Source: Bacillus multifaciens (lineage in GTDB: Bacteria > Bacillota > Bacilli > Bacillales > Bacillaceae_G). From it: DNA of 64,000 nt. Numbering within the stretch: position 1 is the stretch's first letter; every line of letters begins with the position of its first letter. The notes beneath the pieces are model-generated. The model was not told the DNA's origin, ran no database searches, and saw only the letters and a program-made list of their open reading frames with translations. A program made the position numbers and the translations under genes. Where the stretch lies: assembly GCF_030756675.1 (NCBI RefSeq), contig NZ_JAVBXD010000028.1:1-64000 (forward strand), in the 5' to 3' direction. Below, one piece after another: positions 14,193 to 59,597 of this stretch.

Positions 14193-14816
14193 ATGGCATG
14201 GGATTTATTTAGCATCATTGGTACAATTGCGTTCGCTTTAAGTGGAGCAATCATCGCGATGGAAGAAGAATATGATATTTTCGGGGTTTATATTTTAGGG
14301 ATGGCAACCGCATTCGGCGGAGGTGCGCTGCGTAATTTATTAATCGGCTATCCAATTGTTGCGTTTTGGAAACAAGATATGTTATTTCAAATTGCACTAT
14401 TATCAATCACTATTATCTTTTTATTTCCAAACAAACTTATCAAGCATTGGAAGCGCTGGGAAAATATCACTGACGCAATTGGTTTATCTGCTTTTGCGAT
14501 TCAAGGGGCACTATATGCACAAAAACTAAATTTACCAATTAGCGCAACGATTGTAGCATCTGTCTTAACCGGAATCGGCGGGGGAATTATTCGCGATTTA
14601 TTAGCACGCCGAAAACCACTTGTACTACGAGCAGAAGTCTATGCACTTTGGACAATTATAGCTGGACTTTTAATTGGGGCTAAAATTATTGTGAGCGACT
14701 GGGCATTATACGTATTATTCGTTCTTATCGTATGTCTCCGTATGGTCTCACTCTATTACAAATGGCACCTACCACATCGTAGTATAGAAAAGATTGAACA
14801 TTTCAGCGAGAGATAA
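14193..14816 (+). CDS. UPF0126 / TRIC-like membrane protein
   Basis: A 207-aa protein of seven predicted membrane helices made of two repeats, each with a Gly-rich signature: TAFGGGALRNLL and TGIGGGIIRDLLARRKP. This marks the UPF0126 family (annotated as glycine transporter or trimeric intracellular cation channel-like). The substrate is uncertain. I chose ATG 14193 after GAGGGAGAATTTC; the frame is also open from a GTG five codons earlier, which is part of the ribosome site. It diverges from hflX and has its own terminator. Confidence 0.85.
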   Translation: MAWDLFSIIGTIAFALSGAIIAMEEEYDIFGVYILGMATAFGGGALRNLLIGYPIVAFWKQDMLFQIALLSITIIFLFPNKLIKHWKRWENITDAIGLSAFAIQGALYAQKLNLPISATIVASVLTGIGGGIIRDLLARRKPLVLRAEVYALWTIIAGLLIGAKIIVSDWALYVLFVLIVCLRMVSLYYKWHLPHRSIEKIEHFSER

Positions 14817-48306: not shown

Positions 48307-49356
48307 TTACCCTTTGTAGATAAGATCTTGAGCTAAAGATGTAAACATCTCTCCAACAAGCAAATCTTCATCATATACGGATGAACCTTTATTTTCGTCA
48401 GGATTTGCAAAAGGTATTTGTGCAATCACTTCTGTTTGCAGTTGTTCTGCTAACATTTCGCCGCCACCTTTCCCAAAGAGATAGTTCCTTGAACCATCCT
48501 GTTCCTCATAATATGCCATATTCTCAACGATACCTAAAATATCGTGTTTTGTATGCTTTGCCATTACCCCTACTCTGGAAGCAACAAACGAAGCTACATG
48601 ATGAGGAGTAGTAACTATAATTTCCTTTGCGTGAGGAATCATCGCAGCCACATCAATCGCAACATCTCCTGTACCAGGAGGCAAATCAAGAAGAAGATAA
48701 TCTAATTCTCCCCAGTGAGTGTTGGCAACGAAATTTTGAATCCATTTGTTTAGCATTGGTCCTCGCCACATAACTGGGTTATTACCCTCTGTAAAAAATC
48801 CCATTGACATGATTTTAACGCCATGACTAACGACTGGAATCGCTATTTGATCTATCATTGTTGGCTTTTGATTAGCTTCCATCATTGCTGGGATACTGAA
48901 TCCATATATATCTGCATCTAAAATCCCAACCTTTTTCCCCATACGAGCTAAAGCAGTAGCAAGGTTAATCGTCACAGTTGATTTTCCGACTCCACCTTTT
49001 CCACTTGTCACAGCAATAAAACGTACACCTGAATCAGGTCGCAGCATACTAGGCATACCGGTTTCTGTTCTCGAATTTTCCTTTAAAGTTTCTGTTAATA
49101 CAGCTCGTTCTTCCTTTGTCATGGTGCCGAAAGTCAAAGAAACCTTAGATGCTCCTATGTTCCGAAGAGAGTCTTCAATATCTTGTTGAATTTTTGCCTT
49201 TAATGGACAACCTGGAATAGTTAAAATAACTTCAAGGTAAATCTGCGTGCCATCAATTTGAATATTTCTTACCATGTTTAATTCCACAATACTTTTGTGC
49301 AATTCTGGATCTTCTACATGGCTTAAAGCGTTCATAATTTGTTTATGAGTAATCAT
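48307..49356 (-). CDS. Mrp/ApbC-family Fe-S carrier ATPase
   Basis: A 349-aa P-loop ATPase that in the family assembles or carries [4Fe-4S] clusters (SalA in B. subtilis). The N-terminal DUF59/MIP18 domain (about 1-95, ALSHVEDPELHKSIVELNMV, TIPGCPLK) is followed by the deviant Walker A SGKGGVGKSTVTINLA, DADIYGFSIP and LDLPPGTGD. ATG 49356 follows AAAGGAATG; the ATG three codons earlier is also possible. It stands next to the Moco genes, consistent with supplying clusters to MoaA and formate dehydrogenase. A strong terminator lies just upstream, so it needs readthrough or its own promoter. Confidence 0.88.
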   Translation of the reverse strand: MITHKQIMNALSHVEDPELHKSIVELNMVRNIQIDGTQIYLEVILTIPGCPLKAKIQQDIEDSLRNIGASKVSLTFGTMTKEERAVLTETLKENSRTETGMPSMLRPDSGVRFIAVTSGKGGVGKSTVTINLATALARMGKKVGILDADIYGFSIPAMMEANQKPTMIDQIAIPVVSHGVKIMSMGFFTEGNNPVMWRGPMLNKWIQNFVANTHWGELDYLLLDLPPGTGDVAIDVAAMIPHAKEIIVTTPHHVASFVASRVGVMAKHTKHDILGIVENMAYYEEQDGSRNYLFGKGGGEMLAEQLQTEVIAQIPFANPDENKGSSVYDEDLLVGEMFTSLAQDLIYKG

Positions 49357-49391
49357 AAAACTCATTCCTTTCCGTCTCCTTAATTTGTATA

Positions 49392-49446
49392 CAAAAAACA
49401 CCATGAATAATAAAACCTAATACAATCGGCTTCATTACTCATAGTG
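49392..49446 (-). terminator. terminator or attenuator before apbC
   Basis: The two arms 49428-49446 and 49399-49417 form a 19-bp stem in which four positions are G-U pairs. Read leftward, TTTTTT follows. It stands between the 22-codon ORF and apbC. Confidence 0.8.
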
Positions 49447-49456
49447 GAATAGATTA

Positions 49457-49525
49457 CTAGCAATACTTACTAATATACCAATCCAACCATTTTGGCTCTT
49501 CGTTCCAGTACGAGAAATTACTCAT
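49457..49525 (-). CDS. 22-aa microprotein / leader peptide
   Basis: ATG 49525 follows AAGGAGGATAACT, one of the best ribosome sites in the window. The peptide MSNFSYWNEEPKWLDWYISK ends YC. It is rich in Trp and Tyr. Its last ten codons resemble a nine-codon ORF upstream of fdhA (MDWYFSKMC). Inside, TTAGTA and TGCTAG can pair, as TTAGCA and TGCTAA do in the fdhA copy. It starts 50 bases after moaD and ends 11 bases before the terminator hairpin. It may be a real microprotein, a leader peptide, or both part of a structured RNA. Confidence 0.6.
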   Translation of the reverse strand: MSNFSYWNEEPKWLDWYISKYC

Positions 49526-49574
49526 AGTTATCCTCCTTAATGCTGTATTCGAGCTGAAAAGAGAATAAAAAGAA

Positions 49575-49811
49575 TTATCCTCCGCTTACAGGTGGGATAA
49601 ACGCAACGGTATCTCCGGCTTTTACAATATCTTCGTCGATTACGAATTCTTCGTTAATAGCTACCATAACTTTATCCAACGATTGTAAATGATAATTATC
49701 TTTCAGCCATTCTTTTAATTGATGAACATTTATCTCTTGTTTTTCTATTATTACTAATTGATCTGAGCCGACTTCTTCTCGCAAATTTGCGAACAGTAAA
49801 ATTGTAATCAT
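49575..49811 (-). CDS. moaD: molybdopterin synthase small subunit MoaD
   Basis: A 78-aa ubiquitin-fold sulfur carrier starting MITILLFANLREEVGSDQLV and ending FIPPVSGG; the C-terminal Gly-Gly is thiocarboxylated after adenylation by MoeB. Lying 4 bases after moaE, its partner subunit. The frame extends far upstream over moaE, but ATG 49811 is the clear start by family length. Confidence 0.93.
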   Translation of the reverse strand: MITILLFANLREEVGSDQLVIIEKQEINVHQLKEWLKDNYHLQSLDKVMVAINEEFVIDEDIVKAGDTVAFIPPVSGG

Positions 49812-49815
49812 CTTC

Positions 49816-50280
49816 TCATTCTTCCTTCTTCGGTTTTCCTTCTGGATACGGAGTATTTTCAAGCTGATCTCCAATCCACATCGTTCCATCTTCCCAAAAT
49901 TCTTTTTTCCAAATTGGGGCGATTTGCTTAATACGTTCAATTGCGTATTCATTCGCTTCGTAGGCCACTTTACGATGTGGTGACGAAACTGCAATTACAA
50001 CTGCAATATCCATTATTTCTAGTCGACCCACCCGGTGTGTAATTGCTATTTTTGCATCCGGCCACTTTTTTTTGATTTCTTCACCAATTTGAGTAAGCAT
50101 TTTTACTGCCATAGATTTATATGCTTCATACTCTAGATGTAAAGTTCGTTTTCCTTTTGTTAATTCTCTTACTGTTCCAATAAAGGCTGTAATCGCACCT
50201 GCTTCTCTTCTTGCTACCTTATTCGTTACTTCTTCGACTAATATCGGAGTATCTACGATTTCAAATAGTACTTGTCCCAT
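49816..50280 (-). CDS. moaE: molybdopterin synthase large subunit MoaE
   Basis: A 154-aa catalytic subunit turning precursor Z into molybdopterin by sulfur transfer from MoaD. Conserved: GAITAFIGTVRE, LEYEAYKSMAVKM, ITHRVGRLEIMDIAVVIAVS, Arg/Lys in RIKQIAPIWKKEFWEDGTMW. The start overlaps the moeA end by 20 bases. Confidence 0.94.
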   Translation of the reverse strand: MGQVLFEIVDTPILVEEVTNKVARREAGAITAFIGTVRELTKGKRTLHLEYEAYKSMAVKMLTQIGEEIKKKWPDAKIAITHRVGRLEIMDIAVVIAVSSPHRKVAYEANEYAIERIKQIAPIWKKEFWEDGTMWIGDQLENTPYPEGKPKKEE

Positions 50281-51580
50281 CAGAACCCCTCACTTTATAA
50301 GTTGGAATAATATCATACCAAGGCCATTCACTACCTTCGTTATCCTCTAATAAGAAAACATCTACTAACATCTCTTTTTTATATCCTCTCGTACCGCCTG
50401 GGAGTACGATAAAAGCGTTTAATTCTGCCAATGAAGAAACTGCACTAGACTTATCAAATCCTGATGGATAGGCAATTAATTGTTCTTCGTTATATTTGAG
50501 CTTTGCTCGTACAAATCTTGTAAATGGATTAGGTTTTAGAAAATTTTCTCCCAGCAGTGCTTTTTCTCTTTTTAAATGCGGCTTTTCACTAAACATATAG
50601 GTACGAATGCTAGGTCTTACGAATAACTCAAAACCTACATAACAAGCAGAGGGATTACCTGATAATCCAAATAATAATTTTTTATTTAATTGTGCTACGG
50701 TCGTCACGCTTCCAGGCCGCATTGCAACTTTGTTAAAAAGAACTGATGCCCCTAGTTTATTGTAGATAGCTGGCAAATAATCATAATCCCCTACCGAAAC
50801 ACCACCGGTTGTAATTAACATATCCACTTGACTTAACGCTTCTTTTACGGCTGCGTGGCACGTATCAAAATCGTCACTAAACTTCCCAAAGTATTTCACT
50901 CTTCCTCCTGCTCTTCGAATTTGGGACAATATCATGTACGTATTACTATTTCGAATTTTCCCAGGTTGTAGTGATTCATTTACGTCAAGAAGCTCACTCC
51001 CAGTCGCCAATACTCCAACTACAGGCTTTTTTGCAACGGGCACTTCGCTGTAACCAAAAGTAGCAAGGAGAGCTGAAATACCTGGATTAATGTAAGTACC
51101 TCTCTTCGCAAGAATCGTCCCTTTACGTGTATCTTCACCTTGAAAGGAAATATTTTCTCCTTTTTTGAATGAACGCTTCACTTCTATATAGGTTTTACCA
51201 ACCTCCTCATATTGACGGGTCAGTTCTAACATCACAACCGCATTACATCCTTTTGGAATTTGTGCTCCTGTCATAATTCGAACTGCTTGAAACGGTCCTA
51301 CCTCTTGAGGAAATATGGAACCTGCCCCAATCTCACCGATTACTTCGAATATAGTTGGATTCCCATAACTTGCCCATGCAGTATCTTCTGCTCTAATAGC
51401 AAATCCATCATAGGGAGAGCGATTGAAAGATGGAACATCATGATCAGCTACTAAATCCTCAGCTAATATACGTTCATAAGCTACTTCAAGTGGTATAAGT
51501 TCTTTTGAACCCTGCTCAGCAAATTCCATTACTTGATGGACGGCCTCTCCAACTGCAATCGGTATTCGTTTTTCTATCAT
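50261..51580 (-). CDS. moeA: molybdopterin molybdenumtransferase MoeA
   Basis: Inserts molybdate into adenylated molybdopterin. A 439-aa protein with domains in usual order: DVPSFNRSPYDGFAIRAEDT, PFQAVRIMTGAQIPKGCNAV, the MogA-like domain GVLATGSELLD and TTGGVSVGDYDYLP, then GLSGNPSACYVGFELFVRP and a C-terminal beta domain. ATG 51580 follows AAGGAGTGAGG. There is no mogA or mobA in the window. Confidence 0.94.
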   Translation of the reverse strand: MIEKRIPIAVGEAVHQVMEFAEQGSKELIPLEVAYERILAEDLVADHDVPSFNRSPYDGFAIRAEDTAWASYGNPTIFEVIGEIGAGSIFPQEVGPFQAVRIMTGAQIPKGCNAVVMLELTRQYEEVGKTYIEVKRSFKKGENISFQGEDTRKGTILAKRGTYINPGISALLATFGYSEVPVAKKPVVGVLATGSELLDVNESLQPGKIRNSNTYMILSQIRRAGGRVKYFGKFSDDFDTCHAAVKEALSQVDMLITTGGVSVGDYDYLPAIYNKLGASVLFNKVAMRPGSVTTVAQLNKKLLFGLSGNPSACYVGFELFVRPSIRTYMFSEKPHLKREKALLGENFLKPNPFTRFVRAKLKYNEEQLIAYPSGFDKSSAVSSLAELNAFIVLPGGTRGYKKEMLVDVFLLEDNEGSEWPWYDIIPTYKVRGSDGTSTI

Positions 51581-51597
51581 TTTCCTCACTCCTTCTG

Positions 51598-52614
51598 TTA
51601 CCCTAATAAACGATAGTATATTTTTTTCGCTTTTTGAATTTCGTTTGTCCCGTGGATAAATACACGCCCATCCTGAAACATAACCAAACGATAATTATCT
51701 AGTTGGCAACATAGCAAATACGGGTTTCGATTTACTTTCCCATGTTTTTTTAGCTGTTTTTCTAAATGGTCAAAATTGTAACGACTATTACGCGGCGGTC
51801 TAATTTGCACCGTATTTCTCCCACATAAAACAGCTGTCTTTGTTTGGTTTTCATAAGATAAATAAGGATAAGTTCTATGCGTACCGCACGAAGGACAATT
51901 GTCCTTTTTAATTTTTTCTAGTTTGATAGAATGGTGTTGATTACTCCATATATCAAACATTAAAAAGGTGTTTCTAATTGCCGAAAAATCTTCTACTAAA
52001 ATTTTGAATGCTTCTGCCACTTGATACGCTGCCACTATTTGAACAGCGGGACTAATAATTCCAACTGTGTCACATGTCACTCCTGTAACTGGAACACTTT
52101 TAAGTACACAATGTAAGCACGGTGTTTTCTTTGGAATAATCGTATAGCTCATGCCATATCCCCCGACACAAGAACCATAAATCCAGGGAATATCATATTT
52201 TTGTGATAGATCATTTATCACAAATCGAATATCAAAATTATCTGTTGCATCAACGATTATATCGACATTGTCTAACAAAGCTTCCATATTTTCTATTCTT
52301 GCATCCATTACGAAAGCATGAATCTGTACCTCTGAATTGATTTGTTTCAACCGATTTTGAGCTGCAATTGCTTTTGGTAATTTTTCTATCGCATCTTGTT
52401 CAATATAAAGCTGTTGCCTTTGTAAATTACTCCATTCTACGTAATCACGATCAATAATCGTTAACTTTCCGATACCTGCACGAACCAACGCTTCTGCGCT
52501 TGCACTTCCTAATGCACCTGCCCCCACAATCAACACATGCTTATTTCTAATCTTCTCTTGTCCTTTACTCCCAATAGGAGCGAACAACTGTTGACGTGAA
52601 TACCGCTCTATCAT
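51598..52614 (-). CDS. moeB: molybdopterin synthase adenylyltransferase MoeB
   Basis: An E1-like enzyme activating the MoaD C-terminus. The 338-aa protein has the ATP motif IVGAGALGSASAEALVRAGI, DRDYVEWSNLQRQQLY and catalytic Cys in GVTCDTVGII. Zn Cys pairs are PCLHCV and NCPSCGTH. The last about 85 residues form the extra domain also present in B. subtilis MoeB, with no rhodanese Cys loop. The gene may equally serve ThiS activation, though the surrounding genes argue for Moco. Start after GGAAGGCCATCTA. Confidence 0.92.
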   Translation of the reverse strand: MIERYSRQQLFAPIGSKGQEKIRNKHVLIVGAGALGSASAEALVRAGIGKLTIIDRDYVEWSNLQRQQLYIEQDAIEKLPKAIAAQNRLKQINSEVQIHAFVMDARIENMEALLDNVDIIVDATDNFDIRFVINDLSQKYDIPWIYGSCVGGYGMSYTIIPKKTPCLHCVLKSVPVTGVTCDTVGIISPAVQIVAAYQVAEAFKILVEDFSAIRNTFLMFDIWSNQHHSIKLEKIKKDNCPSCGTHRTYPYLSYENQTKTAVLCGRNTVQIRPPRNSRYNFDHLEKQLKKHGKVNRNPYLLCCQLDNYRLVMFQDGRVFIHGTNEIQKAKKIYYRLLG

Positions 52615-52697
52615 TAGATGGCCTTCCTTTCTAGTAAATAATGATCAATTAATTAAAAAATCTGCTGCATATGTGGTTATTATTTAAACATCTTTCT

Positions 52698-52784
52698 CTA
52701 TATGACTTTGTTTCTGATAACAAGAAAAGTAAGCAAATCCAACAAATCCAGCTCAGCGATTTGTTCCGGTTTATGAATTGCCAT
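52698..52784 (-). CDS. 28-aa small ORF in the moeB leader
   Basis: ATG 52784 follows TGGAGGAATCGGTT. The peptide MAIHKPEQIAELDLLDLLTF ends LVIRNKVI. It lies between a strong terminator hairpin (52810-52864) and moeB, 84 bases ahead of it. It may be a leader peptide or a small protein. No family is recognised. Confidence 0.5.
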   Translation of the reverse strand: MAIHKPEQIAELDLLDLLTFLVIRNKVI

Positions 52785-52809
52785 AACCGATTCCTCCATT
52801 TATTCAAAA

Positions 52810-52864
52810 TAAAAAAGCAGCTTCAAGAAACCCTTAACATAGTAAGGATTTTTGAATGCTGCTT
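52810..52864 (-). terminator. terminator or attenuator in the moeB leader
   Basis: Arms AAGCAGCTTCAAGAAACCCT and its partner at 52842-52864 form a long, slightly mismatched stem. Read leftward it ends in GCTTTTTTATTTT. It lies 20 bases upstream of the ribosome site of the 28-codon ORF and 380 bases beyond the end of moaA. Confidence 0.75.
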
Positions 52865-52963
52865 AATCTCCCTGCACTTCTCTTACAGAGATATCAATCA
52901 TCACTTTTACTATAAAATAGAAAATCTGCAAAACTTGCACACTTTCCACTTCGTATATTCAAA

Positions 52964-53170
52964 CATTATCTATATAAATCCAAGTTAAAATCCCGACATA
53001 TAAACCCCTTTCTTTTCTAGGTGGTCGAGAGCGTCTGGCCATGCGTAGAAGCGGTCAGTGCCTTTTTCTGTCACATGCGAAGTTCAAACAAAGGGAAGAA
53101 GCAAGTGCAGGAACTTTTTTTCTACATTGCAACAATCTATATGTCGAAAAATCAAAATCGATTTATATAC
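52964..53170 (+). repeat. bcr-like repeat, copy D
   Basis: Landmarks: CATTATCTATATAAATCCAA, CCGACATATAAACCCCTTTC, GAGAGCGTCTGGCCATGCGT, GAAGCGGTCAGTGCCTTTTT, CACATGCGAAGTTC, TATATGTCGAAAAATCAAAA and TCGATTTATATA. It lies in the gap between moaA and moeB. Confidence 0.75.
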
Positions 53171-53243
53171 TATAACAAAATGAATCTACCGATAGCTTTC
53201 TTTCCTAGTATTTTGAATGTCATCCTAACATATCATTTATTTC

Positions 53244-54260
53244 TCAGCCACCAATATGCGACATTTCAATTTTGGGCACTGTTTTTTTATTCGTGTTGTT
53301 CAACCGTTCATCCGAATAGCGATCTGAACGATTATTCCAAATGTCACGAATAACATCGGTAATCTCCTCATCGGTATACCCTGAACGAAGCAATTTTCTA
53401 AGATCATTTCCTTCGGAAGCAAACAAACAAGTATATAGCTTTCCTTCTGCGGAAATACGAGCTCTTGTACATGATGAACAAAAAGAATCTGTTACAGATG
53501 AAATAATTCCTATTTCCTCACCGCTATCGATATAACGATAGCGAGTGGCAACTTCACCAGGATAATTTGCTTCAATTCGTTCAAGCGGCATAACTTTATG
53601 AATTGTCTCTACTATCTCTTGTCTAGAGACCACTTCATCTAATTTCCAGCCGTTAAAATTTCCGACATCCATGTATTCAATCAACCGAAGAATATGCTTA
53701 TTCTCTTTGAAGTATTGCGCCATTTGAATAACGTCCTGTTCATTTTTTCCTTTTTGGACAACCATGTTTATTTTAATTTTCATTCCAACTTCCGCTGCAG
53801 CCCGTATTCCTCCAAGAACTGTTTGCACTTTACTTCTATTACCATTTAAATAAGCAAATCGCTCTTCTTGCAAGGAATCTAAACTAACTGTCACACGCGA
53901 TAAACCCGCCTTATATAAATCAACAGCAAACTTCTTGAGTAAGGATCCATTTGTAGTTACACCAATATCCTCTACTCCATCAATTTTATTAAGTCGTTCG
54001 ATTAGCTCAGAAAGGTTTTTCCGAAGTAAGGGCTCTCCCCCAGTAATACGCAACTTTCTAACACCTAAAGAAACGAAAATGCGTGCTACCCTTTCAATTT
54101 CATCAAAAGATAAAATTTTATCATTAGACAAAAATGAATAGTCAGGACCAAATATTTCTTCCGGCATACAATATCGACAGCGAAAATTACAGCGATCGGT
54201 AACAGAAATACGCAAATCTCTTAAAGGACGGTGCAATTTGTCCAATGTGACAGCATTCAT
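53244..54260 (-). CDS. moaA: GTP 3',8-cyclase MoaA
   Basis: A radical SAM enzyme making the first intermediate of molybdopterin from GTP. The 338-aa protein has the SAM cluster Cys in [16 protein letters not shown], the GGEPL motif, the C-terminal second cluster in [21 protein letters not shown]-type sequence (Cys at about 262, 265 and 279) and a C-terminal Gly-Gly. Its partner MoaC is not in the window. A 105-base gap separates it from fdhD. Confidence 0.95.
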
Positions 54261-54364
54261 GTTTATTGCCTCACTTCTACATATATTATGATTCCGTACA
54301 CATTTTATTTAAACCAATCGTTCAGCCAACATGCTAAACAGTAAATTAACGATATTGTTTGTAT

Positions 54365-55162
54365 TCATTTCATATTTACAATACGCTCCGGATGAGTATA
54401 TACATTTAAAGATTGATTACGAATAAAGCCTATTGCAGTAATCCCTAATTCTTCTGCTAGCTCTAGTGCTAACTCAGTTGGAGCGGATTTTGACAATATT
54501 ACTTCGCAGCCAATTTTCGCAACTTTTAATAGAATTTCCGAAGATATACGGCCACTAAAAACAATAATTTTATCACCAATAGAAATGCTATTTTTTAAAC
54601 AATAGCCGAAAATTTTATCTAAAGCATTATGTCTTCCTATATCCATTCGGCTTAAAACAATCCCATTCACATCACATAAGGCTGCATTATGGACCCCGCC
54701 TGTATTCTGAAAAGTAGCTGCAGATTCCTGCATATCATCCATTAATCGAAAACAATCCTGGACAGAGATCTTTACTCGAATATCATTCATTTTCTTCGCA
54801 GTCAACGCATCGTTTACGAAAACAAATCCTTGTCTACTCATTCCACAGCATGAAGTAATATAACGCTTATTTTGGATGTCACGATAATAAGGATTGATCT
54901 TTGTCGTCGTTACATGTACGTATCCTTCTTTATCTTGTACCCATATTTCATCAATATCTTCATATTTTCGGATAATACCTTCAGATGCTAAAAAGCCTAT
55001 CACCATATCTTCAATATACTCTGGAGTACTAACCATTGTAACAAATTCCTGCCCGTTAATTTTAACCGTAACTGGAAACTCTGTTACAATGCTGTCCTCT
55101 ATACACTTCATTTCCCCTTTATCATAACGAAAAATTTCCCGTTCCACCTGTATCGACTTCAC
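54365..55162 (-). CDS. fdhD: formate dehydrogenase sulfurtransferase FdhD
   Basis: A 265-aa FdhD: passes sulfur to the molybdenum centre of formate dehydrogenase. Conserved: ITSCCGMSRQGFVFV (catalytic Cys region), FQNTGGVHNAALCD, DIGRHNALDKIFGYCL and IIVFSGRISSEILLKVAKIG. It lies between the fdhA cluster and moaA, as expected for its role. Confidence 0.94.
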   Translation of the reverse strand: MKSIQVEREIFRYDKGEMKCIEDSIVTEFPVTVKINGQEFVTMVSTPEYIEDMVIGFLASEGIIRKYEDIDEIWVQDKEGYVHVTTTKINPYYRDIQNKRYITSCCGMSRQGFVFVNDALTAKKMNDIRVKISVQDCFRLMDDMQESAATFQNTGGVHNAALCDVNGIVLSRMDIGRHNALDKIFGYCLKNSISIGDKIIVFSGRISSEILLKVAKIGCEVILSKSAPTELALELAEELGITAIGFIRNQSLNVYTHPERIVNMK

Positions 55163-55178
55163 AATCAGTATCCTTCTC

Positions 55179-55523
55179 TCACGTTATATTTTTATCAAAG
55201 ACAAATACTGAAACTGCAATATCTTCATCCACTTTCATATCCGAAAACAGATGAACTAATTTTGCCCCAACAAGTTCCTCCAAATGATCACGAGAATTGA
55301 CGGCATAAACCTCCTGAATCATTTTCGTTCTAGCCATATGAACCATTTCTGCACCATCCAACGTTCCAGAAATAAACTTCTCAGTTGGTGTCAAATTTCC
55401 ATAAAGTGTGGCAATAGCCATGTTCTCAACAAATACAGTATGAATTCGTTCCGGTCCTTTTCCAAACAAATCTTTTCGAAGTTTTCGTATCATATCATTA
55501 AACTCATGTACCATTTTTGACAT
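55179..55523 (-). CDS. DUF2294 family protein
   Basis: A 114-aa protein with pattern KGPERIHTVFVENMAIATLYGNLTPTEKFI and RTKMIQEVYAVNSRDHLEEL, the DUF2294 family of bacilli. The function is unknown. It stands between the DUF1641 gene and fdhD in the same direction, so a link to formate dehydrogenase is plausible. Confidence 0.8.
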   Translation of the reverse strand: MSKMVHEFNDMIRKLRKDLFGKGPERIHTVFVENMAIATLYGNLTPTEKFISGTLDGAEMVHMARTKMIQEVYAVNSRDHLEELVGAKLVHLFSDMKVDEDIAVSVFVFDKNIT

Positions 55524-55701
55524 ACTTGCATTCCTCCCCGATTCATTAATAATGCTTTTCGAATACTACTTCATCATAAACATTTTAACAAAATAACCTT
55601 TTCATCTGAATTATTCACTCAAATAATTAGACGAAAAGGCTCATCTTTTGCAATTATTTCAAACACATATAAAACGTATGAAATAATATTTTTCCGCTTA
55701 C

Positions 55702-56184
55702 CTATTCGTCTTTTAACCCCTTACCCATACCTTTTAAGAAATGAAGACCAAATCCGATTGCACGGTTAATATCTGGATCCTTAAGTACTTTCATAAGGTC
55801 CAGTATTCCTACTTTTTTATTACTTTCCAGGTGCTCGTTTCCTTCATCCATACCTTTTAGTACACTACTTACAAGTTTTTTAGTAAGTTCCGGATCAAGT
55901 TCTGTTAAAGCTCCTGCAGCGCCCATCATATTATTAATCAAATTCGTGACTGGTTCACGAGTGACCTGTCCTAGAACAATTTTTGCAATTGGTTCTTTCG
56001 CTTTAAGCATAGAACTTGCAGCTTCTAGTATCCCGATGTCATTCAGTTCACCTACAATATTAAACATTTGATTTAAAGCTTCTTCATGATTAGCTAGAAG
56101 TGCCTTTAAATCTTCTAGCTTTTGTTGTTTTTGTTCTTCTTCAGTTAGCTCATGCCTTTGGATCGCTTTAATAGGTGCTGCCAT
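55702..56184 (-). CDS. DUF1641 protein, formate dehydrogenase partner (YrhD-like)
   Basis: A 160-aa helical protein beginning MAAPIKAIQRHELTEEEQKQ with the typical DUF1641 part LNDIGILEAASSMLKAKEPI, GLHFLKGMGKGLKDE at the end. It follows the FdhA-type gene by 15 bases, the standard pairing (yrhE-yrhD of B. subtilis). Relatives are proposed to help the enzyme dock with its electron acceptor. Confidence 0.9.
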   Translation of the reverse strand: MAAPIKAIQRHELTEEEQKQQKLEDLKALLANHEEALNQMFNIVGELNDIGILEAASSMLKAKEPIAKIVLGQVTREPVTNLINNMMGAAGALTELDPELTKKLVSSVLKGMDEGNEHLESNKKVGILDLMKVLKDPDINRAIGFGLHFLKGMGKGLKDE

Positions 56185-56199
56185 ATTCTTTTCTCCTCC

Positions 56200-59139
56200 C
56201 TAGTTATCCGTCAAGTGCACATATCCTGGACGAGTCCACTTGCGATTTACCTCAATCCCATTTTGAGGATGACGCTTTTTGTTACGCGGATTCGTTTTCG
56301 GCATCGGATTTTCCCCTTCTACTTGTAACACTTCCATACGAACTTTCGTTTGTTTATATGCAGGTGTATTCGTACGATGATCGACCGCAGGACCCGTTAA
56401 GAAATTAATTGCCGATTCGTTGTCTGTCGAGTTCATCGGTAAATAAAGCTCATTTGCTTTTACACGACCCGTTACAAGTGCACGTAATTTAAGTGCTCCA
56501 AAAGGAGAAACAAGGCGCACTAATGAACCCGTTTTAACTCCACGTTCCCTTGCAAGTTCTGGAGAAACTTCAACGAAAACACCAGGTACTTTAGCTTGAA
56601 TCCCATTTGATTTATTTGTCATGTTACCTTCATGGAAATGTTCAAGCATACGACCATTATTAATATGAAGATCGTATTCCTCTGGGAATTCAGCTGGACG
56701 TACCCATTCAGCTATCGCAAATCGAGCCTTTTTATCCGGGAAGTTAAATCCATCTAAGAAAAGAAGCGGCGTATTCGTTCCGTCAAAGCTTCCCCAATGG
56801 AAACTATTCCAACCTTCAAGCACTTCATAGTTTGCTTTTGCGAAAAGTGGCGATAAACTTGCCATTTCAGCAAAGATTTCACTTGGATGGCTATAGTTCC
56901 AGTTTGCACCTAATTTATTTGCAATCGCTTGTACAATCCACCAATCTGGTTTCGCATCTCCAAGCGTAGGAAGTACTTGATATAGTCTTTGTACACGACG
57001 TTCTGTATTTGTAAAAGTACCTTCTTTTTCAAGAGATGGCGCCGCTGGTAACACTACATCTGCATATTGAGCAGTTTTAGAAAGGAATACATCTTGAACG
57101 ACAAAGAAATCAAGACTTGATAGAACTTCATGTACATGATTTGCGTTAGAGTCTACAAGGGCCATATCCTCTCCAACAAGATACATTGCTTTCATTTTCC
57201 CTTCTTCAATTGCGTGAAGCATTTCAATGTTGTTGAGACCTAGTTTGTTATCAATTTTCACCCCGTAAGCTTTTTCAAATTTTTCGCGGGCTACATCATC
57301 AGTAACGTGCTGATATCCCGGAAGCCATCCCGGGAGCGTTCCCATATCACAAGCACCTTGTACGTTATTATGGCCACGAAGCGGATATGCACCAGCACCC
57401 GGACGGCGATAATTCCCTGTTGCAAGCAGCAAGTTTGAAATTGCAGCGGAAGTATCTGAACCACCCGTATTTTGCGTTACACCCATTCCCCAAAGAATAC
57501 AAGTACCATCTGCATCACGAATCATTTCTGCCATTTTAACGAGTGTTTCTTTTGAGATGCCTGTAATCTCTTCTGCATATTCAAGCGTATACTCTGCAAG
57601 ACTACCTTTGAAATCTTCAAAGAAGTTTACATTCTCATCGATGAATTGTTGATCATGCCAGCCTTGATCAATCATATATTTCGTAATAGCCATTAACCAT
57701 ACTTGGTCTGTTCCTTGCTTTGGACTAATAAAGATATCTGAACGCTCTGCCATTTCAGTTTTACGAAGATCTGCAACAATTAGTTTTTGACCGTAAAGTT
57801 TATGCGCACGTTTCACACGAGTAGCTAACACCGGGTGGCCTTCTGTTGGATTACAACCGACGATAATAACAAGACCTGCTTGTGCAATATCTTTAATTGT
57901 TCCTGCATCTCCGCCCATACCAATTGTACGGAACAATCCATCTGTTGCTGGCGATTGACAATAACGAGAGCAGTTATCAATGTTGTTCGTTTCGAATACT
58001 TGTCGAGCTAATTTTTGAATGACATAGTTGTCTTCATTCGTAATTTTAGAAGAAGAAATAAAACCTATAGAACCGTTACCGTATTCTTGTTTAATAGAGC
58101 CTAATTTATTTGCAACTAAATCAAGCGCTTCTTCCCAAGTTGATTCAACAAATGTTCCATTTTTACGAATTAAAGGCTTAGTAAGGCGTTCTTCAGCATT
58201 TACGAAATCCCAACCAAATTTTCCTTTTACACAAGTAGAAATCGCGTTAACCGGTGCCTCAGAAGTTGGTTGTACCTTCAAAATTTTACGACCCTTCGTC
58301 CACACTTCAAATGAACACCCTACACCACAAAACGTACATACTGTTTTCGTCTTCTTCGTACGAGTTTCTCGCATGGCAGCTTCTACTTCTGATATAGCGA
58401 AAATACCGCTGTACCCAGGTTCAACTTCTTTTATAAGATCAACCATCGGCTCAAGAATGTCCGGCTTTAGCCCAGTCATAAATCCAGCTTCTCCAAGCAT
58501 CGATTTCTCCATCAAAGCATTACAAGGACAAATGGTTACACATTGACCACAGCTTACACATGAAGAATCGTTAATAGCCGCACCGTCATCCCAAATTACA
58601 CGAGGGCGTTCTGCTTCCCAATCAATAGATAACGTTTCATTTACTTGTAAGTTTTGACAGACCTCAACACATTGACCGCACGCAATACATTGATTAGGAT
58701 CATAACGATAAAATGGATGAGACATGTCAACTTCACTTGCATCTACTTTTGGTTTGTAAGGATATTTTTGATGCTCAATTTCCATTAATTCTGCCGTATT
58801 ATGCAATTTACAGTTCCCATTATTGTTGTCACAGACCGTACAATAAAGTAAATGGTTTTCCAATAAGCGGTCCATCGCCTCAGTTTGTGCTGCCTTTGCA
58901 CGAATAGAGGACAACTCAATATCCATACCGTTCGTCGCTACTGCCGAACAAGATCGCACCAATTTCCCATCAACTTCTACAATACAAGTATCACACGTTT
59001 GAATAGGATCCACTTCAGGCACGTAACAGATTTGCGGATGTTCAATCCCGTTTTGATTAATAATGCCCAAGATCGTTGAACCGGGCTTAGCTATATATTC
59101 TTTGCCGTCGATTGTAATATGAACCATGCTGTCGTTCAT
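56200..59139 (-). CDS. formate dehydrogenase alpha subunit, NAD-type with N-terminal Fe-S domains
   Basis: A 979-aa molybdoenzyme oxidising formate to CO2 (YrhE/YjgC-like). Domains in order: 2Fe-2S ferredoxin (about 1-80, CYVPEVDPIQTCDTCIVEVD), His/Cys cluster (HLLYCTVCDNNNGNCKLH), two 4Fe-4S sites (CIACGQCVEVC, CVSCGQCVTICPCN), catalytic 4Fe-4S (VCTFCGVGCSFEV ... TCVKGKFGWD), then the bis-MGD domain with Mo ligand Cys in NCSRYCQSPATDGL. The ligand is Cys, not selenocysteine. ATG 59139 follows GGGGGAAAG. A leader with terminator hairpin lies just upstream. Confidence 0.93.
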   Translation of the reverse strand: MNDSMVHITIDGKEYIAKPGSTILGIINQNGIEHPQICYVPEVDPIQTCDTCIVEVDGKLVRSCSAVATNGMDIELSSIRAKAAQTEAMDRLLENHLLYCTVCDNNNGNCKLHNTAELMEIEHQKYPYKPKVDASEVDMSHPFYRYDPNQCIACGQCVEVCQNLQVNETLSIDWEAERPRVIWDDGAAINDSSCVSCGQCVTICPCNALMEKSMLGEAGFMTGLKPDILEPMVDLIKEVEPGYSGIFAISEVEAAMRETRTKKTKTVCTFCGVGCSFEVWTKGRKILKVQPTSEAPVNAISTCVKGKFGWDFVNAEERLTKPLIRKNGTFVESTWEEALDLVANKLGSIKQEYGNGSIGFISSSKITNEDNYVIQKLARQVFETNNIDNCSRYCQSPATDGLFRTIGMGGDAGTIKDIAQAGLVIIVGCNPTEGHPVLATRVKRAHKLYGQKLIVADLRKTEMAERSDIFISPKQGTDQVWLMAITKYMIDQGWHDQQFIDENVNFFEDFKGSLAEYTLEYAEEITGISKETLVKMAEMIRDADGTCILWGMGVTQNTGGSDTSAAISNLLLATGNYRRPGAGAYPLRGHNNVQGACDMGTLPGWLPGYQHVTDDVAREKFEKAYGVKIDNKLGLNNIEMLHAIEEGKMKAMYLVGEDMALVDSNANHVHEVLSSLDFFVVQDVFLSKTAQYADVVLPAAPSLEKEGTFTNTERRVQRLYQVLPTLGDAKPDWWIVQAIANKLGANWNYSHPSEIFAEMASLSPLFAKANYEVLEGWNSFHWGSFDGTNTPLLFLDGFNFPDKKARFAIAEWVRPAEFPEEYDLHINNGRMLEHFHEGNMTNKSNGIQAKVPGVFVEVSPELARERGVKTGSLVRLVSPFGALKLRALVTGRVKANELYLPMNSTDNESAINFLTGPAVDHRTNTPAYKQTKVRMEVLQVEGENPMPKTNPRNKKRHPQNGIEVNRKWTRPGYVHLTDN

Positions 59140-59161
59140 GGTCTTTCCCCCTTTTTGAGAA

Positions 59162-59226
59162 TAAAAAAACTCCACCACGAAAATATACGCACCGAATTAA
59201 TAGGTACGCTATCATCATGGTGGAGT
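59162..59226 (-). terminator. terminator or attenuator directly before fdhA
   Basis: Outer arms ACTCCACCA (59218-59226, read leftward) and TGGTGGAGT (59169-59177) and inner arms near GCGTACC and GGTGCGTA give a long hairpin followed by TTTTTTTATT. It ends about 10 bases before the fdhA ribosome site. Confidence 0.82.
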
Positions 59227-59232
59227 AGTTTA

Positions 59233-59262
59233 TTAGCACATCTTGCTAAAATACCAATCCAT
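59233..59262 (-). other. nine-codon ORF in a conserved leader element before fdhA
   Basis: Read leftward ATGGATTGGTATTTTAGCAA gives MDWYFSK and then MC and a stop. There is no ribosome site and an in-frame stop lies immediately upstream, so translation is doubtful. The DNA closely matches the end of the 22-codon ORF before apbC, including bases after the stop. TTAGCA and TGCTAA pair as a 6-bp hairpin. Confidence 0.45.
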
Positions 59263-59414
59263 TTATTTGTAAATAAAATGATAGATTCATAACAGGTCAT
59301 ATCACGATTCCATCTTTAACACTATAATTATAGCGTTTACCCCAAAAATATACAATATTAAAATCATAAAAAAGTCAAGGCACTTTAAATGAGCCGGCTG
59401 TTATTATTTTATCC

Positions 59415-59597
59415 TTACATAATACAGACTAGTCGTAATGTAGTATACATTTCCACGAGAAACACTTCAACTGATCTCTTTTTTATTGTGTTGTGTACAT
59501 TCTTATTACCTGTACGTTCCAGCCAATCTAGTGCCCGAGTATTCCATTCATCAATGTTTGTAAATACACGGCTATCTGCAAATTTCCCCTTTTTAAT
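59415..59597 (-). pseudogene. IS21-family IstA transposase fragment
   Basis: Read leftward the frame gives KKGKFADSRVFTNIDEWNTR, then ALDWLERTGNKNVHNTIKKR and SVEVFLVEM. This matches the late part of IS21-family IstA (RVFTNIDEWN, WLERTGNxNVHNTTKKRPVEVF). Stops bound the piece on both sides; about 60 residues remain of a protein of over 400. Confidence 0.7.

Follow-up and report, generated by a model that had tools for sequence, protein, structure and literature searches.

A conserved hairpin attenuator before formate dehydrogenase and other genes of Bacillus multifaciens and its relatives, and its coupling to DUF2294/MpsC proteins

Why should a gene for an iron–sulphur (Fe-S) carrier ATPase, apbC, and a gene for formate dehydrogenase (FDH), fdhA, follow the same kind of leader, made of a tiny open reading frame (ORF), a hairpin and an intrinsic terminator? 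The question is raised by the window, i.e., the whole stretch of 64,000 nucleotides (nt) that was analysed, positions 1 to 64,000 of contig NZ_JAVBXD010000028.1 (assembly GCF_030756675.1) of Bacillus multifaciens. The sequence-only reading of this DNA had proposed a common transcription attenuator before genes of molybdenum (Mo), Fe-S or formate metabolism, and further homologues together with covariation now support that proposal. A protein, DUF2294/MpsC (PF10057; YrhF in B. subtilis), is strongly implicated, but unproven, as the partner of the attenuator. The parts of the two leaders are given below, with scores from two covariance models, R1 for the core and R2, the combined model; HP1 and HP2 are the upstream and the downstream hairpin.

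49457–49525, minus strand: ORF of 22 codons with a strong Shine–Dalgarno sequence (AAGGAGG), overlapping HP2 of apbC
49445–49485, minus strand: HP2, putative antiterminator hairpin of apbC (R1 65.4 bits; R2 48.8 bits with the HP1 part truncated)
49393–49446, minus strand: intrinsic terminator before apbC (from the fold; −27.4 kcal/mol)
48307–49362, minus strand: apbC, Mrp/NBP35-type Fe-S carrier ATPase (Pfam PF10609 and PF01883)
59327–59355, minus strand: putative promoter of the fdhA leader, by eye (TTGTAT at 59350–59355, a 17-nt spacer, TATAAT at 59327–59332)
59280–59314, minus strand: HP1 of the fdhA leader, a 15-bp helix in the alignment with a loop of about 5 nt (fold and covariation)
59221–59261, minus strand: HP2, putative antiterminator hairpin of fdhA (helix P1 UGGA-U-UGGU/ACUA-C-UCCA, helix P2 UUAGCA/UGCUAA; R1 68.8 bits)
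59233–59262, minus strand: ORF of 9 codons, mostly inside HP2 of fdhA
59163–59225, minus strand: intrinsic terminator of fdhA, whose 5′ arm has CUCCA in common with HP2
56203–59139, minus strand: fdhA, FDH alpha subunit of the B. subtilis YrhE/ForC2 type (NCBIfam TIGR01591 above cut-off, and relatives)

Direct reading of the two leaders bore out what had been described of them: both ORFs are present, TGGATTGGTAT is common to both, and the 6-bp stem (TTAGTA/TGCTAG vs TTAGCA/TGCTAA), the common TCCAC..ATGA and the strong terminator directly 3′ are all there. The conserved unit exceeds this stem, as the flanking UGGA-U-UGGU pairs with ACUA-Y-UCCA and overlaps the terminator. HP2 is thus a hairpin of 41 nt, with an outer UGGA-U-UGGU/ACUA-Y-UCCA and an inner UUAGYA/UGCUAA helix, a 3×3 internal loop and an end loop of usually five nt. 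Its last bases, UCCA, are at the same time the start of the 5′ arm of the terminator (UCCACCAUGA..UCAUGGUGGA, then a U-run), so that the two folds are mutually exclusive. HP2 of the fdhA leader has a folding energy of −12.3 and its terminator of −28.7 kcal/mol; the means over 40 leaders are −12.6 vs −26.4 kcal/mol, and since the terminator is the stabler fold, termination is expected as the default. The folding z-scores are −3.8 for the apbC and −5.9 for the fdhA leader, with none of 200 shuffles equally stable in either case. Both leaders therefore have the two exclusive folds, one of them an intrinsic terminator before the gene, that define an intrinsic-terminator attenuator.

HP1, a 15-bp hairpin ending in UA-loop-UG, is found on many fdhA leaders (44 leaders with HP1 were collected), and in the window it lies just 3′ of the TATAAT box; many relatives, too, have a TATAAT-like box directly 5′ of it. 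The TTGTAT box of the putative promoter matches the consensus at three of six positions only, and this promoter is absent from the list of the promoter scan. No clear HP1 was seen in the apbC leader of the window, either in the fold or in the R2 alignment. Just 5′ of the fdhA promoter (59420–59580, minus strand) an open stretch, TNIDEWNTRALDWLERTGNKNVHNTIKKRSVEVF.., was noticed by eye, which we take to resemble the end of an IS21-type transposase gene.

The loci of the best 80 relatives of fdhA served as a sample for conservation. R1 was searched in all 80 and in the window at an expectation value (E) ≤ 0.004, and 67 of the 80 carry the element 5′ of fdhA as a plus-strand match; the seed of R1 was 40 sequences, most of them from these same loci, which match by construction. 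The hosts are Bacillus (including species of the B. subtilis group), Gottfriedia, Priestia, Peribacillus, Sporosarcina, Planococcus, Lysinibacillus, Geobacillus, Aneurinibacillus and Paenibacillus. The element is missing from 13 loci (L014, L044, L047, L052–L055, L057, L074, L075 and L077–L079). One of these, the fdhA locus of Peribacillus muralis (L014), has kept the terminator and the 3′ half of HP2 but neither the usual HP1 nor the 5′ half of HP2; no DUF2294 was detectable there by BLAST (a distant one exists), and in a relative, L012, element and DUF2294 are both intact. L014 is a case where nature has removed the switch and the close DUF2294 with it.

Both stems covary, a point that the sequence-only reading had wanted checked, and further homologues were found before Mo, Fe-S and formate genes. 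The shuffles ignore relatedness, alignment A8 leans to its own model and the structure was derived from the same sequences. Within these limits, covariation of HP1 (alignment A4) is strong: 12 of 15 pairs are changed on both sides (92 cells), and the score of 0.516 vs 0.201 ± 0.015 for shuffled alignments was reached by 0 of 500 shuffles. That of HP2 is moderate, with 40 cells in 79 distinct rows and a score of 0.205 vs 0.133 (0/500 shuffles); an earlier alignment had given 8 cells and 0.141 vs 0.118 (0/500 shuffles). The moderate value for HP2 is put down to its high conservation.

Which genes stand behind the element was followed in whole genomes. In the order of Gottfriedia, R1 matched 46 of 299 genomes at E ≤ 1e-3; R2, at E ≤ 0.01, matched 14 of the 246 genomes searched in the order to which a Paenibacillus genome belongs and 88 of 200 in that of a Sporosarcina genome. 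In the Gottfriedia-order set, 13 minus-strand loci were checked by re-reading alone after turning, and L105 among them showed coding sequence instead of a leader. For 105 places matched by R2 in the Paenibacillus and Sporosarcina orders (six Sporosarcina-order places left out), the downstream gene by BLAST was fdhA in 86, a PF03458 transporter gene in 13 and another in 6. The last six are a broken PF03458 gene, a 153-amino-acid (aa) ORF followed by modA-modB, an EAL gene behind a proper terminator, and three places that are apparently false (modA, modB and EAL were named by eye from the sequence). The element was also found 5′ of apbC, of DUF2294 itself (L132–L135) and of a formate/nitrite transporter gene (L296, L297).

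Some observations concern the PF03458 genes. In L208 (G563) the broken PF03458 gene follows an intact element; an intact copy of element and gene lies some 10 kb away. Four members of the Sporosarcina genome's order (L269–L272) have the PF03458 element at a distance of about 2.6 kb from moaD, and three of them also from moaE, which links this ‘glycine transporter’ family to genes for the molybdenum cofactor (Moco). The window itself has a PF03458-like gene at 14193–14789 (plus strand), 42% identical to an element-controlled transporter, with no R2 match listed nearby.

A third, diverged copy lies in the window 5′ of moeB (52851–52950, minus strand), where R2 scores 31.3 bits (E 5.6e-5 without filters).

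52915–52950, minus strand: HP1-like hairpin of the third element, of the formate/nitrite-transporter class (R2 and fold)
52856–52904, minus strand: HP2-like hairpin of the third element, limits approximate (R2 and alignment)
52811–52864, minus strand: terminator of the third element (fold and alignment)
52698–52784, minus strand: ORF of 28 codons 3′ of the third element, after which come moeB-moeA-moaE-moaD

This copy aligns end to end, including the terminator and the start codon, with the formate/nitrite transporter leaders of L296 and L297, which R2 itself scores weakly (22.6 and 21.0 bits). The 28-codon ORF aligned with the L296 transporter above all 500 shuffles, best at the N-terminus, and a C-terminal scrap of the transporter at 52708–52752 reaches E 1.2 only. 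Judged from these alignments, the ORF is probably a remnant of a formate/nitrite transporter gene.

What could decide between the two folds? The genes that follow fdhA in the window offer a candidate.

55702–56184, minus strand: DUF1641 gene, ForE2/YrhD-like partner subunit of FDH (Pfam PF07849; role as given in the accessible text of PMC8808070)
55179–55523, minus strand: DUF2294/MpsC gene, candidate trans-acting factor (Pfam, co-occurrence, adjacency and an AlphaFold2 model)
54365–55162, minus strand: fdhD (Pfam PF02634)

A DUF2294 gene lies within 6 kb in 55 of the 67 element-bearing fdhA loci; 54 of these genes are divergent and start 232–803 nt 5′ of fdhA, and one is downstream (L001). 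Ten more loci have it further off in the locus (in L068 an edge fragment only) or elsewhere in the genome, and two, L002 and L064, have none by BLAST. Among the 13 element-less loci, ten are without DUF2294 in the locus, and the other three carry diverged copies (40–58%). At the level of genomes, with a close DUF2294 defined by 58% identity and E ≤ 1e-40, the counts for both, element only, DUF2294 only and neither are 45/1/4/249 in the 299 genomes and 84/4/1/111 in the 200 genomes (Fisher p 1.5e-47 and 2.7e-50, phylogeny ignored). The five element-only genomes include three, G185, G558 and G696, that rest on matches judged false, and two, G650 and G734, that look real. In the set of 299, a finer search revealed an element at the locus for three of the four genomes with DUF2294 only (56.9, 32.7 and 27.4 bits, the last two weak), and the sole such genome of the 200, G564, has a weak one (26.9 bits) beside its DUF2294. 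The gene of the candidate regulator thus co-occurs with the sites almost without exception; this coupling, out of reach of a reading of the sequence alone, is the strongest clue. In the Domibacillus genome G246 (contig C12, 152940–154615; L064) two divergent ORFs of 237 and 273 aa each hold two DUF2294-like domains in one frame.

The pairing extends to other targets. DUF2294 stands beside 6 of 14 PF03458 loci examined (the 14 include the broken copy), and G001 and G283 have it at their PF03458 loci too; it adjoins the apbC element of Gottfriedia (G001), a genome with three elements and three close DUF2294 genes, and the formate/nitrite-transporter elements of L296 and L297. In G426 (L275/L161) the EAL gene, named by eye, stands behind an element with two divergent DUF2294 genes, i.e., a cyclic di-GMP enzyme has the same kind of switch. 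Distances between DUF2294 proteins and between HP2 sequences are correlated (35 chosen pairs, r = 0.49, 0 of 2000 permutations, host phylogeny ignored). The DUF2294 proteins at PF03458 loci are closer to each other (78%) than those at fdhA (64%), and so are their HP2s (84% vs 70%); one of eight, that of L273, is nearest to the fdhA type. The AlphaFold2 model of DUF2294 is confident, with a predicted local distance difference test value of 93.5.

A second DUF2294 subfamily, of 39–47% identity, has a related attenuator (type II) 3′ of its gene, mostly within a few tens of nt: GGUUAGGCACUUGGUAGCGACCCUGCUAAAGACUCAACCACCG, followed by a terminator and, as read, with no HP1. In the eight loci read (L280–L287) a gene for an oxidoreductase comes after it, each time with the same motif at the N-terminus; the one tested, that of L285, encodes a molybdopterin oxidoreductase of the FdhF/YdeP family, so that formate dehydrogenase activity is likely, not certain. 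With at most two mismatches allowed, a type II pattern matched 50 of 299 genomes, and a backward control pattern had no match; all 50 attenuators lie 26–199 nt 3′ of such a DUF2294 gene on the same strand, and 15 of the 65 genomes with this kind of DUF2294 lack the pattern. Covariation of type II was not significant. Kinship of the two types is suggested by their common architecture and by similarity, L280 being intermediate.

We think it somewhat probable that DUF2294/MpsC acts in trans to antiterminate the genes of formate-linked molybdoenzymes, by binding and stabilizing HP2. The nascent RNA, if unaided, would fold the stronger terminator, and transcription would stop before the gene. If HP2 were held together, its lower stem would sequester UCCA, and the polymerase would read on into fdhA, the formate transporter gene, apbC and others. 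DUF2294, with its gene often beside the element, would be the most likely binder, and HP1, a second hairpin of similar shape near the 5′ end of the fdhA transcript, would probably be a second docking site where present; the whole might thus act as an antitermination cassette that blocks the terminator and switches on formate-linked molybdoenzyme genes. The signal to the protein would be formate, or the state of the molybdenum bis-pyranopterin guanine dinucleotide (Mo-bisPGD)/FDH system. A wider proposal is more tentative, and we lean slightly away from it: DUF2294/MpsC would make up a new family of RNA-binding proteins that antiterminate in response to formate or molybdenum. Many would have their gene next to the hairpin leader on which they act, and regulator and switch together would form a mobile cassette, employed repeatedly before two kinds of molybdoenzyme gene, a formate/nitrite and a PF03458 transporter gene, Moco and Fe-S genes and even an EAL gene across Bacillus, Paenibacillus and their relatives.

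The signal might instead be molybdate or Moco and not formate, sensed by protein or RNA through the same attenuator, an alternative that overlaps the other readings and that we regard as rather unlikely. It would account for the moeB-moeA-moaE-moaD genes behind the third element, for apbC, for modAB (L217) and for the Mo enzymes, whereas the formate/nitrite and PF03458 transporters need no Mo. The signals suggested by the sequence-only reading stand in part: the targets (FDH, formate/nitrite transporter, moe/apbC/modAB) are compatible with formate or with Mo/Moco. Membership of the Moco riboswitch family is not supported, which also counts against a Mo or Moco signal. No Rfam 15 family reached its gathering score in the whole window or in seven other loci, and the fdhA leader and a B. 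tequilensis leader gave nothing relevant, and no Moco match, at E ≤ 10.

Several findings weigh against antitermination by DUF2294. Roughly every second copy outside fdhA lacks a neighbouring DUF2294 (about 3 kb looked at), namely the PF03458 copies of G555, G563 (intact and broken), G656, G566, G708, G685 and G004, the modAB copy of G631, and the apbC and third copies of the window; these would have to be controlled in trans by the product of the fdhA-linked gene, or not by DUF2294 at all. G751 (76 bits), G734 (52) and G650 (36) have an element and no close DUF2294, a point in favour of the RNA sensing directly, or of recent loss; G246, counted under neither, has an element on finer search and only fused, diverged DUF2294, and next to the DUF2294 of G176 no element was found. 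The genome counts ignore phylogeny, and neighbour pairs have their intergenic region in common. Changed-pair and pair-type counts of HP2 are not clearly above shuffles (equalled in 48 and 268 of 500 with 79 rows, in 116 and 333 of 500 with the earlier alignment). The DUF2294 model had no significant fold match (some weak rows were ribosomal proteins, none conclusive), and Pfam names PF10057 (MpsC) after a membrane-potential system; the PDB held no sequence relative up to E 10. The coupling could also mean a common function in formate metabolism instead of regulation.

The main rival draws on some of these points: the RNA itself (HP1 and HP2) would bind formate, molybdate or Mo-bisPGD and so hold the antiterminator, DUF2294 being a mere functional partner of FDH. 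Such a riboswitch would suit a compact RNA with strong sequence conservation and covariation, targets largely of one metabolic theme, the three genomes G751, G734 and G650 without a close DUF2294, and the copies just named without an adjacent one. We consider it unlikely, as the conserved part is two simple hairpins, HP1 with variable loops, type II, as read, and the apbC copy of the window lack HP1 and are left with about 41 nt, and DUF2294 is paired with targets other than FDH (PF03458 transporter, EAL, apbC).

A leader peptide ending DWYISKYC or DWYFSKMC, as had been suggested, would make this ribosome-mediated attenuation, and the 22-codon ORF of the apbC copy, with its strong Shine–Dalgarno sequence and its end inside HP2, would fit. 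Yet among 40 leaders an in-frame start with a Shine–Dalgarno-like sequence was seen in only four and no in-frame start in seven, some DWYxSKxC frames run on or stop early, with the stop shifted or the frame broken in several, and HP1 and P2 vary by compensatory pairs. The DW..SK.C frame is retained because nucleotides and spacing are conserved. L001:22203, the sole other apbC leader found, lacks an in-frame start, so that the ORF is not conserved there; it may be translated locally, and it is not the conserved unit. Control by a peptide is thus highly improbable. That these are constitutive terminators or a dispersed repeat without regulation is very hard to credit, real as the terminators are and copyable as repeats may be, given the position, the antiterminator overlap, the covariation and the target bias (86 fdhA and 13 PF03458 of 105).

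DUF2294 antitermination would bear on several published observations. A 139-nt peak in the yrhE leader region of B. subtilis is the first entry in Table 2 of an Hfq pull-down study (PMC3574147), where it is called ‘new sRNA or yrhE leader region’, and a footnote to that table, within the accessible text, refers to an earlier report that suggested a leader there; a short, Hfq-enriched yrhE leader RNA in vivo was counted in favour of the attenuator. In the accessible part of PMC8808070, YrhED is described as a formate dehydrogenase that is linked to menaquinone and unusually regulated, and forCE1 and forCE2 seemingly do not follow the usual anaerobic or formate induction. YrhF is given as a target of the small RNA RoxS with unknown function in the available text of PMC8216469 and PMC10433868. 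Neither the motif nor a role for DUF2294 was found in print, with most subscription papers and all supplements outside the reach of the search. If true, DUF2294 antitermination would provide a function for PF10057, a family of unknown role, explain a strongly Hfq-enriched and so far unexplained leader RNA, reveal a regulon for formate oxidation, the control of which is unusual in Bacillus, and add an RNA family without a match in the Rfam 15 scans.

Among known systems, the tandem-hairpin layout is that of the ANTAR proteins (EutV, NasR, AmiR), where, in the accessible text of PMC3369931, the second hairpin is exclusive with an intrinsic terminator and antitermination depends on the protein. 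The ANTAR targets described there have hexanucleotide loops with A at position 1 and G at position 4 in both hairpins, which were not seen in the alignments by eye: here the HP1 loop varies in length, the HP2 loop is usually five nt, and the coupled protein is DUF2294, not ANTAR. The short conserved antiterminator hairpin overlapping a terminator is shared with the ribonucleic antiterminator (RAT) of LicT, SacY and GlcT (Rfam bglG-cis-reg, RF03530). In RAT systems, too, the regulator gene is often beside the target. RAT differs from the element in sequence and internal loops, its model scored 18.3 bits vs a threshold of 80, and no PRD/CAT protein is among the neighbours read here. The Moco riboswitch (Rfam RF01055) is a large multi-stem aptamer, and its covariance model had no match here. 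It resembles the element in controlling Moco and Mo-enzyme genes (PMC2408646). The element is a genuine attenuator family without a match in the Rfam scans. The Hfq-associated yrhE leader RNA of B. subtilis, for which, unlike here, no motif, regulon or partner is described in the accessible text of PMC3574147, is a 139-nt leader in the same genomic place.

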